Origin: Longimicrobiaceae bacterium | GTDB taxonomy: Bacteria; Gemmatimonadota; Gemmatimonadetes; Longimicrobiales; Longimicrobiaceae | NCBI GenBank assembly: GCA_036375715.1 | Contig: DASVBS010000031.1 | Coordinates: 124,001 to 188,000 of the forward strand | Direction: 5' to 3' | DNA length: 64,000 nt | Shown: in pieces, positions 16,899-20,290 of the stretch | Layout: each line of letters starts with the position of its first letter | Position numbering within the stretch: the stretch's first letter is position 1 | The notes under the pieces: model-generated | The model's input: the letters and a program-made list of their open reading frames with translations, nothing else | What the model was told of the DNA's origin: nothing | The model's database searches: none | Position numbers and translations under genes: made by a program

Positions 16899-18473
16899 AT
16901 GACAGCTCTGCGATCCAGCGTCTACGACACCATCGTCATCGGCAGCGGGTTCGGCGGCGCGATGGTGGCGTTGCCGCTGGTGGAATCGGGTCAGCGGGTG
17001 TTGATGCTGGAGCGCGGGGACTGGGTGCCCGAGGGACCGCAGCGGGCCGATCCGGTGCGCGGCTTCTTTCAGCTCACTCCGGCCTACACGCTCGAGACGG
17101 CGTACGAGGTACGTCAGCGAAAGCGACGGCACCACGAGGGGATCTGTGCATGCGTCGGTGGGCCGTCGGTGTTCTACGGCGGCGCGGCATTCCGCCTTCG
17201 CCGGGAGGATTTTCATCCGCCCGCGCAGATCGTGGGGAACTCGGGGGCAGAATGGCCGTTCAGCTACGACGATCTCGAGCCTCATTATGCCCGTGCCGAG
17301 ATGCTCCTGGGCGTAGCAGGCCGCGCGGGGGAGGATCCCACCGAGCCACCCCGAAGTGCGCCCTATCCGCGCTCGCCGGTGGCGCTGGCGCCGATCTCCC
17401 GCCGCATTGTGGAGGCAGCGCAGGAGATGGGGCTGCACCCCTTCCGCATCCCGCTGGCCTTCGACGAGCGGAGTGGTGCGTGCCTCTATTGCGACGGGTA
17501 CGCCTGCCACAGCGGCTCCAAGCACGACCTCGCCTCCCGCGTGATCCCGCGCCTGATCGAAGGCGGTCTGGAGCTGCGCCCGGCCACCGTCGCGATTCGG
17601 CTCGAGGCGCGAAGAGGGAGAGTGGTGGGGGTGGAGGTCTACGACCGAACCAAGCGGGAGAGGCGGGAGCTGCGTGCCGAGCGGGTCGTCCTGGCGGCGG
17701 GGGCGCTGGCTTCGCCGCACCTGCTTCTCGCCTCCGGCCTGGCTTCAGAGAATTCCGCCGGGGACGCGATAGGCAGGTACCTGATGCGGCACTGTAATGC
17801 CTTCGTTTACGCCTTCTTCCCGAAGGCGCCCAACCCGGAGGGTCTCCATCACAAGCAGGTTGCCATCAACGACTTCTACTTCGGTGACCCGGAGGGCGGG
17901 CCGGCCGACAAGCTCGGGAACATCCAGCAGGTGATGCATCCACAGCCGGGTGGGATTCTGCGGGGGCCGGCGCGCAGGCTGGCGAGGGCTGGCGGCCTCG
18001 GGCGCGCGCTCGAACGGGCGATGGCGAGGGCGATCGCCCCTGCATCCCTGCGGATGACCGGGCTCCAGGTCATCGCGGAGGACCAGCCGCGCTGGGAAAA
18101 CCGCATCGAGCTGGAGCGCGGCGGGGCGGATGCGGTGGGGCTGCCGCGCGCCCGTATCGCCCACGCCTACACGGAACGCGACCTCGCGGCGCGCGCGGCG
18201 CTGGTGCGCAGGGCAAAACAGATCCTCGGCCGCGTGCCGGGCGCTCACGTGGTGCATGTCCACGAGGTGGAAACCTTCTCGCACGCGGTGGGGACGGTGC
18301 GCGCCGGCCCCGATCCGCGTCGGGCTCCGCTGGACGAGTTCTGCCAGTTCCGCGGAATCGCGAATCTCTACGTGGTGGATGGCTCATTCATGCCGACCTC
18401 TGGCGGGGTGAACCCCAGCCTGACGATCGCGGCCAACGCGCTGCGCGTGGGCGAGCGGGTCGCGCGGAGCTGA
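16899..18473 (+). CDS. GMC-family FAD oxidoreductase
   Basis: The 524-residue enzyme begins with a dinucleotide-binding fold, IVIGSGFGGAMVALPL (GxGxxG, residues ~15-20). CVGGPSVFYGGAAFR matches the GMC glycine-rich FAD region. The C-terminus (YVVDGSFMPTSGGVNPSLTI) is the conserved FAD-closing segment, and HAVGTVRAG holds the likely catalytic His region. A short cluster CLYCDGYACHSG (~190-201) is unusual and could bind a metal. Family members oxidise alcohols or sugars using FAD. It leads a three-gene operon with a Gfo/Idh/MocA dehydrogenase (3-nt gap) and a membrane protein (4-nt overlap), pointing to sugar or glycoside oxidation. Confidence 0.87.
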   Translation: MTALRSSVYDTIVIGSGFGGAMVALPLVESGQRVLMLERGDWVPEGPQRADPVRGFFQLTPAYTLETAYEVRQRKRRHHEGICACVGGPSVFYGGAAFRLRREDFHPPAQIVGNSGAEWPFSYDDLEPHYARAEMLLGVAGRAGEDPTEPPRSAPYPRSPVALAPISRRIVEAAQEMGLHPFRIPLAFDERSGACLYCDGYACHSGSKHDLASRVIPRLIEGGLELRPATVAIRLEARRGRVVGVEVYDRTKRERRELRAERVVLAAGALASPHLLLASGLASENSAGDAIGRYLMRHCNAFVYAFFPKAPNPEGLHHKQVAINDFYFGDPEGGPADKLGNIQQVMHPQPGGILRGPARRLARAGGLGRALERAMARAIAPASLRMTGLQVIAEDQPRWENRIELERGGADAVGLPRARIAHAYTERDLAARAALVRRAKQILGRVPGAHVVHVHEVETFSHAVGTVRAGPDPRRAPLDEFCQFRGIANLYVVDGSFMPTSGGVNPSLTIAANALRVGERVARS

Positions 18474-18476
18474 AGG

Positions 18477-19472
18477 ATGGAGCCCCAGCGGGACTCGATG
18501 GGCCTCGTCTTCCTCGGCTGTGGCTTCGCCACCCGCCTGCACAGCCGCACCCTGCGCCGCTTCCCGACAGTCCGGCGTTACTACGCCAGCCGCGACGTTC
18601 GCCGCGCGGAAGAGTTCAACCGACGGTTCCGCGGCGCGGGCGCGTTCGGCTCGTACCAGGCGGCCCTGCAGGATCCGCAGGTCGAGGTGGCGCTGGTGGC
18701 GACGCCGCCCGCGACTCACCTCGAGCTCACCTTGAGTGCCCTGGCGGCCGGCAAGCACGTGATCCTGGAGAAGCCGCCGCTGATGCATTCCGCGGATTTC
18801 GCCCCGCTGCAGGCGGCTGCAGAAGCCGCGAACCGGCAGGTGATGGTTGCCGAGAACTACTTCTACAAGCCGCTGGCGGAGCGCGTGCGGCGGGTAATTG
18901 CCGCAGGCGATATCGGCGAGCCGCGTATCCTCTCGGTGCGCGCGCTCAAGAAGCAGCGCACGGGGGACTGGCGCGACCTGGTGGAGCTGGCGGGGGGAGG
19001 CGCCCTCTTCGAGGGAGGGATCCACTGGGTCAACTTCATGGCAAATCTCGGACTCGAGGTGCGGCGGGTGCACGGATATCGACCCGGTCCGCAAGAGGGT
19101 CCGGAGCGGACCATGGTCGTGGTGTTCGAGTACGCGGGCGGAGCCGTGGGGACGCTGTACCATTCGTGGGAGATCGGCTCGCCGCTCCGGGGGCTGCGTT
19201 TGTCGGCCATCTTCGGCACCGAGGGCGCCCTGACTTTCGAGTCCAACGGGCTGGGGATGATGGTGCGAGGTCGTCGACGCCGCCTGGAGCTGCCGGACCC
19301 GCGGGACCTGCTCGGCTATCGAGCGATGTTCGAGGATTTCTTCGCGGCCTTGCGCGAGCGGCGCGCCCCGCGATTCACCCTGGCGATGGCGCGCCGAGAC
19401 CTCGAGCTGGTCGAGGAGGCATACGCCTCGCCTCTGCCACCCGGGCTGGACGGGATGGAGATGGAAGCGTGA
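18477..19472 (+). CDS. Gfo/Idh/MocA-family NAD(P) dehydrogenase
   Basis: This 331-residue protein has an N-terminal Rossmann fold (VFLGCGFATRLHSRTL; residues ~11-26), ALVATPPATH, and the family-defining Lys in VILEKPPLMH. YFYKP and GGGALFEGGIHWVNFM sit in the C-terminal alpha/beta domain, with the catalytic His region. Members oxidise or reduce sugar hydroxyls or epimerise via keto intermediates. It starts 3 nt after the GMC oxidoreductase stop, at ATG 18477; ATG 18498 is an alternative. Its stop overlaps the start of the membrane protein gene, so all three products are probably made together. Confidence 0.88.
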   Translation: MEPQRDSMGLVFLGCGFATRLHSRTLRRFPTVRRYYASRDVRRAEEFNRRFRGAGAFGSYQAALQDPQVEVALVATPPATHLELTLSALAAGKHVILEKPPLMHSADFAPLQAAAEAANRQVMVAENYFYKPLAERVRRVIAAGDIGEPRILSVRALKKQRTGDWRDLVELAGGGALFEGGIHWVNFMANLGLEVRRVHGYRPGPQEGPERTMVVVFEYAGGAVGTLYHSWEIGSPLRGLRLSAIFGTEGALTFESNGLGMMVRGRRRRLELPDPRDLLGYRAMFEDFFAALRERRAPRFTLAMARRDLELVEEAYASPLPPGLDGMEMEA

Positions 19473-20290
19473 ACGAGTTGACGGCGATGGTGATCGGGGC
19501 GGTGGCGGGGGCGCACGCCTCCACCTGGGGGATGTACAAGGACTCCATTCACGAGGGATTCACCTGGCCTAAGTATTCGCGGAGCATCATCGTGGGCGCG
19601 GTGGTCGCGTTGGTGCTGCACGCGGTGCTGCGGTTCCCGCTGGAGACCGCGGGAGACTGGGCGGTGTTCTTCGGCCTGGTGTACGCTGGCGAACGGCTGT
19701 TGCTGGAGCTGTGGAAGGGCTACATCCGCGAGGAAGATCAGTCCAAGTACTTCATCCCCATGCAGTTCGGGATTTTCGGCAAGCCCGTCGAGAACCGCGC
19801 TGCCCGATGGTCGGTGCTCTGCGGTGTGCTGATCGTGCTGGCGGCGAGCGTGTGGGGGGTCGAAACCCTGCAGCGCACCATGCCCGACCTGCCGCCCTGG
19901 CTCGTTCTGGTGACCATCGGTTCCTTCGGCGGGTGGCTGACCGCTTTCGGCGGCGCGTGGAAGGATGCGCCCGTGGAGGGCTTCGAGATCCTGAAGTTCT
20001 TCCGCAGCCCGCTGATCTCGCTCTTCTGGGCGGTGGTGATGGCCTTCTTCACCGACCGCTGGCTCTACATCGGGGTCGCCGGCGCTGGCTACAGCGTCGC
20101 CACGATCGAGACCTACAAGACCTTCTTCTTTCCGAGCAAGCCGCGCGGCAAGTTCGCCGGGAAGCCCATCACCCACCCTGAGATGCTGACCCGGCGCCAG
20201 TACTTCGTGCCGCTCTACGTGGCGATCTGGCTGGCCGTGCTGGGGAGCCTGGTGGCGGCCTTCGGGGAGGCGAGAGCGGGGTTGCTGTAA
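19469..20290 (+). CDS. multi-pass membrane protein of unknown function
   Basis: The 273-residue protein has about six hydrophobic helices (MVIGAVAGAHAST, IIVGAVVALVLHAVL, WAVFFGLVYAGERLLL, WSVLCGVLIVLAASVWG, WLVLVTIGSFGGWLTAF, YFVPLYVAIWLAVLGSLV). The polar motifs WGMYKDSIHEGF (~20-31) and WKDAPVEGF (~163-171) repeat a W-x-KD-x-EGF theme, suggesting internal duplication of a 3-helix unit. GTG 19469 overlaps the preceding stop (GTGA). I do not recognise the family. Its operon with two sugar-type oxidoreductases suggests transport of, or electron transfer for, their substrate. Confidence 0.75.
   Translation: MNELTAMVIGAVAGAHASTWGMYKDSIHEGFTWPKYSRSIIVGAVVALVLHAVLRFPLETAGDWAVFFGLVYAGERLLLELWKGYIREEDQSKYFIPMQFGIFGKPVENRAARWSVLCGVLIVLAASVWGVETLQRTMPDLPPWLVLVTIGSFGGWLTAFGGAWKDAPVEGFEILKFFRSPLISLFWAVVMAFFTDRWLYIGVAGAGYSVATIETYKTFFFPSKPRGKFAGKPITHPEMLTRRQYFVPLYVAIWLAVLGSLVAAFGEARAGLL

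Follow-up and report, generated by a model that had tools for sequence, protein, structure and literature searches.

In mycobacteria, DprE1, a flavoenzyme of the VAO type, is paired with DprE2, a reductase of the SDR type. As described for these bacteria, the FAD oxidase and the reductase together epimerise a lipid-linked sugar, decaprenylphosphoryl-ribose, in two steps (PMC4366402, PMC9993113). Other flavoenzymes, namely FAD-glucose dehydrogenase (FAD-GDH), fructose dehydrogenase (FDH) and the mycofactocin dehydrogenase MftG, are described as handing their electrons to an electron-transfer subunit or the respiratory chain (PMC6719666, PMC11778925), which for MftG means membrane-bound components (PMC11778925). 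Putative inositol-lipid clusters of Bacteroidota (NTP transferase, CDP-alcohol phosphotransferase and HAD genes, or BT_1522-1526) are reported to have the phosphotransferase with the NTP transferase, and an LPG-synthase-type gene, within or nearby (PMC9246714). Here we describe a three-gene locus from a Longimicrobiaceae bacterium that resembles each of these systems in part. It lies in a stretch of 64,000 nucleotides (the window; positions 124,001 to 188,000 of contig DASVBS010000031.1, assembly GCA_036375715.1) and encodes a GMC-family FAD oxidoreductase (hereafter GMC), a Gfo/Idh/MocA-family enzyme (GFO) and a membrane protein of unnamed family (MEM). We tentatively propose that the three work as a cytoplasm-facing, membrane-associated redox system, which would first oxidise and then reduce a lipid- or phosphate-linked polyol or sugar in the manner of an epimerisation.

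The genes of the trio follow one another on the forward strand of the window:

16899..18473, + strand: gene for GMC, the GMC-family FAD oxidoreductase, 524 amino acids (aa)
18477..19472, + strand: gene for GFO, the Gfo/Idh/MocA dehydrogenase/reductase, 331 aa
19469..20290, + strand: gene for MEM, the eight-helix membrane protein of unnamed family, 273 aa, GTG start

Three nucleotides separate the GMC stop (18473) from the GFO start (18477), and the end of GFO (19472) overlaps the start of MEM (19469) by four, in agreement with the same-strand reading frames of the original prediction, which was made from the DNA letters alone. The GTG start aligns with Met1 of several homologues. The trio is flanked on the opposite strand by PilZ (upstream) and thyX (downstream) genes, and therefore stands isolated in its own genome.

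That GMC, GFO and MEM form one system, as was first supposed, is well supported by comparison of genomes, because synteny, co-occurrence and correlated divergence all point to it. A contig scan of public genomes gave 73 MEM loci, of which 72 are distinct (L109 was dropped as the same stretch as L108). Both enzyme genes adjoin MEM in 56 of the 72, in the order GMC-GFO-MEM in 55 and with MEM between the enzymes in one (L079). The carriers include a culturable bacterium, Mucilaginibacter pineti 47C3B (L081). The gene-neighbourhood search suggested with the original prediction thus did not find MEM mostly without the two enzymes. Nine of the remaining 16 loci have less than 1 kb of contig upstream. 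GFO only is found beside MEM in four: three lie at contig ends, and the fourth, L044, has 5.7 kb between GFO and MEM, with the end of a GMC gene ahead of GFO in L030 on the same contig. Neither enzyme is linked to MEM in the other 12, where the upstream sequence is shorter than 700 bp in six, 2.5 kb in one (L056) and about 6 kb in five. By their record titles, the MEM loci belong to Gemmatimonadota, Bacteroidota, Acidobacteriota, KSB1, Calditrichota, Poribacteria, Myxococcales/Deltaproteobacteria, Dadabacteria and one actinobacterium (Marmoricola); since the Dadabacteria and Marmoricola loci are without linked enzymes, the whole trio is found in about seven phyla.

Among 395 Gemmatimonadota genomes, in which only a few candidates per genome were scored so that absences are soft, MEM was found in 33, GMC in 53 (E ≤ 1e-60) and GFO in 42 (E ≤ 1e-50). 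MEM and GMC have 32 genomes in common, MEM and GFO 31, and GMC and GFO 42 (Fisher p ≤ 8e-32 for the pairs, uncorrected for relatedness). The pairwise distance matrices of the three proteins are also correlated (r 0.74-0.84 over 54 rows, the window and 53 loci), and none of 999 permutations gave a value as high.

Two observations concern individual loci. One stretch of a 45,621-bp contig, that of L108 and L109, is present in two metagenome-assembled genomes labelled Phycisphaerae and KSB1, and one of the bins is probably contaminated. The MEM of L106 (Marmoricola sp. URHB0036) has diverged (43% identity) and adjoins a LuxR-type AAA regulator, in a genome with no GMC at E ≤ 1e-30; this MEM may have another role.

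The families of both enzymes are ordinary, whereas the libraries and literature searched yielded neither MEM nor its conserved partnership. For the window MEM, Pfam gives nothing above cut-off and NCBIfam nothing at E ≤ 1. No Pfam family is matched by over three of 76 MEM homologues, the best being VMA21 (E 0.0013, in two of them), and their 76-row profile matches no PDB chain at E ≤ 10. The viral contigs and plasmids searched held no match to MEM, and PADLOC matched none of the three proteins. A literature search of titles and the starts of abstracts, with few subscription journals covered, returned nothing on the trio, which does not imply that it is unpublished.

An AlphaFold2 model of MEM built from the 76 sequences (pLDDT 93.8, pTM 0.92) has eight long helices arranged as a 4+4 duplication, and thereby replaces the six helices given originally. 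The duplicated KD/EGF motif noticed at that stage is real: KD-x3-EGF is present twice, and the two halves are homologous (hhalign probability 98%, E 1.5e-13, residues 2-85 against 143-219). Foldseek of the model found no PDB structure at E ≤ 0.001 (best 0.43), which does not prove a new fold, and nothing in BFVD at E ≤ 0.001; the best Z in a VIA structure comparison was 4.5 among 1000 chains. Searched alone, the C-terminal half (model pLDDT 73.4) likewise gave nothing in the PDB at E ≤ 0.001. The statement that MEM is of no familiar family agrees with these searches of Pfam, NCBIfam, PDB sequences and folds. The repeats and conserved loops of MEM are as follows:

19472..19723, + strand: repeat 1, residues 2-85 (hhalign, half against half, E 1.5e-13)
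19895..20125, + strand: repeat 2, residues 143-219 (hhalign, half against half)
19538..19585, + strand: conserved loop 1, K24-D25-x3-E29-G30 to R38-S39 (invariant or near-invariant alignment columns)
19691..19807, + strand: conserved loop 2, E75-R76-x3-E80 to R113 (alignment conservation)
19961..20011, + strand: conserved loop 3, K165-D166-A-P-x-E170-G-F-x3-K176-F-F-R179-S-P (alignment conservation)
20108..20197, + strand: conserved loop 4, E214-T-Y-K217 to R243 (alignment conservation)

K24, D25, E29 and G30 of the first repeat and K165, D166, E170, G171 and F172 of the second are invariant in the 76 rows, the window's included. MEM has 40 invariant columns in all (15.4%), a conservation somewhat overstated because most rows were gathered by exact matches to six short peptides of the window MEM. 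L078 was left out of the alignment for its stop codon, as were loci not submitted to alignment; one further row set omitted L109 and eight loci regarded as duplicates, together with short, low-scoring and stop-bearing rows. MEM is split between frames in L037 (G058:C5), L108 and L030/L044, which are pseudogenes or sequencing errors; in L030/L044 it also lies several kilobases from GFO. UbiA prenyltransferases, considered for a likeness in two Asp-rich repeats, were rejected as relatives: the Pfam matches do not include UbiA, nor is it named among the PDB fold matches listed for MEM, which is no proof of absence, and the UbiA protein that the BFVD search ranks 44th is at chance level (E 5.2).

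With loop segments assigned by hand, 17 of the 18 invariant charged residues of MEM (His counted) lie on one face, which carries charges of +20/-13 against +4/-7 on the opposite face. By the positive-inside rule, the charged face is predicted to be cytoplasmic, and such a one-sided face fits better with an active or docking site than with a transport path. The original prediction allowed for a transporter or an electron acceptor. MEM could instead be a transporter or flippase, its 4+4 repeat serving to move the oxidised or epimerised product; a polytopic protein with an internal duplication would suit this role, as would the flippase-like genes near seven loci and the VTT-domain genes beside three. 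But the invariant charges do not run along a membrane path, the four-helix repeats should share their orientation, unlike those of inverted-repeat transporters, and the lack of PDB folds at E ≤ 0.001 and of VIA Z values above 4.5 adds weak evidence in the same direction. We therefore consider transport improbable.

The family assignments of the two enzymes made in the original prediction were confirmed by Pfam. GMC scores above cut-off with both GMC_oxred_N (67.6 bits, cut-off 23) and GMC_oxred_C (77.4 bits, cut-off 24.6), and GFO with GFO_IDH_MocA (64.3 bits, cut-off 24). No NCBIfam model matches GMC above cut-off; the best is MftG (TIGR03970), at 87.6 bits far under its cut-off of 387. The closest PDB relatives are FAD-GDH and FDH, with a best match at E 1.7e-38. 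Two sets of GMC residues stand out:

18282..18413, + strand: pair His462 and Asn505 (each in 58 of 58 rows)
17481..17507, + strand: Cys195-x2-Cys198-x4-Cys203, candidate Fe-S site (57, 58 and 58 of 58 rows)

We take His462 and Asn505 to be the catalytic pair of GMC enzymes. The Cys triad sits in the loop that holds the 3Fe-4S ligands of Burkholderia FAD-GDH, given as Cys212, Cys218 and Cys222 (PMC6719666). In a pairwise alignment to PDB 8hdd, Cys203 corresponds to the ligand Cys222 and Cys198 to Cys213, a non-ligand. The FAD-binding fold begins at residue 9, so there seems to be no room for a signal peptide. Unlike the FAD-GDH and FDH complexes, the window trio has no adjoining hitchhiker or cytochrome c gene, its Cys residues are spaced differently, and GMC is predicted to be cytoplasmic. 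A second, divergent GMC gene (by Pfam) immediately follows MEM in L085 (6985-8730).

These properties bear on the chief rival to the epimerisation proposal, in which MEM would anchor a GMC dehydrogenase to the membrane and serve as its quinone-reducing subunit, docking the flavoprotein and handing its electrons to the quinone pool. The dehydrogenase would act on a free sugar or polyol, with GFO handling the keto product. The electron transfer described above for the nearest GMC relatives, the conserved Cys triad and the large conserved charged face of MEM would all agree with an anchor, as would the need for another acceptor where no cytochrome or hitchhiker gene adjoins the trio, as in the window. 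However, MEM has a higher invariant fraction than GMC (11.8%, 58 rows) or GFO (9.4%, 63 rows), which is unusual for an anchor, although the row sets differ and the MEM rows were picked by peptide. The only invariant His of MEM is His16, so there is no pair of His to ligate a heme. Of ten MEM genomes tested, four also lack a GMC gene at E ≤ 1e-30; in L056 MEM stands beside a phosphotransferase gene, with GMC on a different contig; and in other genomes its position is filled by a YdjM protein that is not related to it. Taken together, we think an anchor unlikely.

GFO too has no NCBIfam match above cut-off. The best is levoglucosan dehydrogenase (64.5 bits, cut-off 650), and inositol 2-dehydrogenase IolG (TIGR04380) also gives 64.5 bits, under its cut-off of 355; PDB relatives include dihydrodiol and scyllo-inositol dehydrogenases. 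E98-K99-P100, the catalytic His183 and Arg39 are invariant in 63 of 63 rows. In an alignment Arg39, which follows the second strand, pairs with an Arg that in dihydrodiol dehydrogenase presumably has a role with NADP, and the sequence Ser38-Arg39 suggests NADP(H) as the cofactor.

The pair of enzymes had originally been likened to keto-glycoside pathways, with GMC making 3-keto glycosides that GFO processes. Gfo/Idh/MocA enzymes are indeed described as participating in glycoside oxidation (PMC11239390), but GFO reaches only 19.6 and 14.9 bits with the glycoside and disaccharide 3-dehydrogenase models (NF058561 and NF058563), far under their cut-offs of 750 and 650, and the conserved membrane protein would be left unexplained. 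A Pfam scan of flanking genes covered 55 of 94 candidates (the 39 omitted being mostly short or previously classified); among the 25 families listed of 40, a glycoside hydrolase (MGH1-like) occurs a single time, and families of sugar isomerases or sugar transporters do not occur. The recurrent neighbours found are lipid genes, and we regard such a catabolic pathway as very improbable.

Of 22 Bacteroidota-titled loci, 16 have lipid genes nearby, either for a CDP-alcohol phosphotransferase or flippase-like. The phosphotransferase gene is the next one downstream of MEM in nine of the 22, among them L090, where it is about 0.5 kb off; seven other Bacteroidota loci have an LPG_synthase_TM/flippase-like gene near the trio. 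This phosphotransferase neighbour has about 405 aa, with the CDP-alcohol phosphotransferase domain at the C-terminus. It scores best with the IPCT/DIPPS inositol model, at 105.7 bits far under the cut-off of 580, and matches 4o6m and 4mnd in the PDB. Where GMC stands apart from MEM (four genomes looked at), such a phosphotransferase gene lies one gene from GMC in L155 and L158, and none was seen near GMC in L156 and L157. Because each of 14 Bacteroidota genomes (the nine and five others, 4.2-7.4 Mb in size) has 2-7 matches to a CDP-alcohol phosphotransferase, we estimate the chance of finding one within 6 kb at about 1% per locus, the loci being partly related. Two ino1 genes are present in the genome of the window, one of them about 1 kb from a stretch weakly like the phosphotransferase (E 5e-7). 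In L153 (6537-10900; G000:C34), the neighbours of an ino1 gene look like a TIM-barrel isomerase, a phosphodiesterase-like protein and a membrane protein similar to prenyltransferases, in a layout reminiscent of ebo clusters. Phosphotransferase and LPG_synthase-type neighbours thus recur both near Bacteroidota MEM and in the inositol-lipid clusters introduced above, but the words "GMC" and "oxidoreductase" do not occur in the main text describing the latter (PMC9246714).

The GMC-GFO pair occurs without MEM in 11 Gemmatimonadota genomes. A YdjM-type (PF04307) membrane protein of about 150 aa, with conserved His/Asp residues, lies beside the pair in seven of them, six times upstream of GMC and once after GFO (L139:3951-4409, L140, L142, L143, L144, L145 and L148; three assigned by Pfam and the others by tblastn to one of those three). 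MEM itself was rejected as a YdjM relative (hhalign probability 0.9%; YdjM is absent from the Pfam matches listed for the window MEM and the 76 rows). The enzyme pair is the core of the module and seems to work with some membrane partner, and YdjM with GMC-GFO is a second version of it.

For the epimerisation proposal we infer a sidedness, direction, substrate, electron acceptor and role of MEM as follows. GMC would oxidise a hydroxyl of the sugar or polyol to a ketone; its electrons would go to an acceptor in the membrane, perhaps by way of an Fe-S cluster at the Cys triad. GFO would then reduce the ketone with NAD(P)H and leave the carbon in a changed configuration, a net epimerisation. MEM would present or make the lipid- or phosphate-linked substrate at its charged cytoplasmic face, and inositol-type head groups are our best guess for that substrate. 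The likeness to DprE1 and DprE2 is one of mechanism only: Pfam places the enzymes of the trio in the GMC and Gfo/Idh/MocA families, apart from the VAO and SDR types, and we know of no MEM-like partner of DprE1 and DprE2. A bolder version is possible, if doubtful: MEM would be the first known member of a new class of polytopic membrane enzyme, in which the KD-x3-EGF loops of the 4+4 tandem repeat form a cytoplasmic phosphate-binding site and which, with the pair, produces or epimerises a polyol- or sugar-lipid not yet described, in several bacterial lineages that are mostly uncultured.

Several observations weigh against the epimerisation proposal. The CDP-alcohol phosphotransferase and flippase-like neighbours are seen only in Bacteroidota-titled loci, several of them closely related, and the window trio has PilZ and thyX on the other strand instead. 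Ino1 (PF01658), tried as a co-occurrence marker, is present in 360 of the 395 Gemmatimonadota genomes and is uninformative. Every NCBIfam match of the trio proteins is far under cut-off, and the peptide-based gathering of MEM rows counts here as well. The Cys spacing of GMC is unlike that of the GDH ligands and only Cys203 pairs with a ligand, so an Fe-S cluster is not established. Ten genomes of MEM loci without linked enzymes (those of L104 and L107 excluded, completeness not given) have a close GMC elsewhere in six cases and none at E ≤ 1e-30 in four. Neither YdjM nor MEM is found in four of the 11 pair-only genomes (L141, L146, L147 and L149; the L146 sequence stops just past GFO), and L155-L158 show no GFO homologue near GMC in the stretch examined.

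The trio nonetheless offers a concrete target: an ordered three-gene module in about seven phyla, with a strongly conserved MEM unmatched in the libraries searched. Its study could uncover a new step on a lipid or glycolipid. If the epimerisation proposal is true, GMC and Gfo/Idh/MocA enzymes would provide a second architecture for oxidise-then-reduce chemistry at the membrane.

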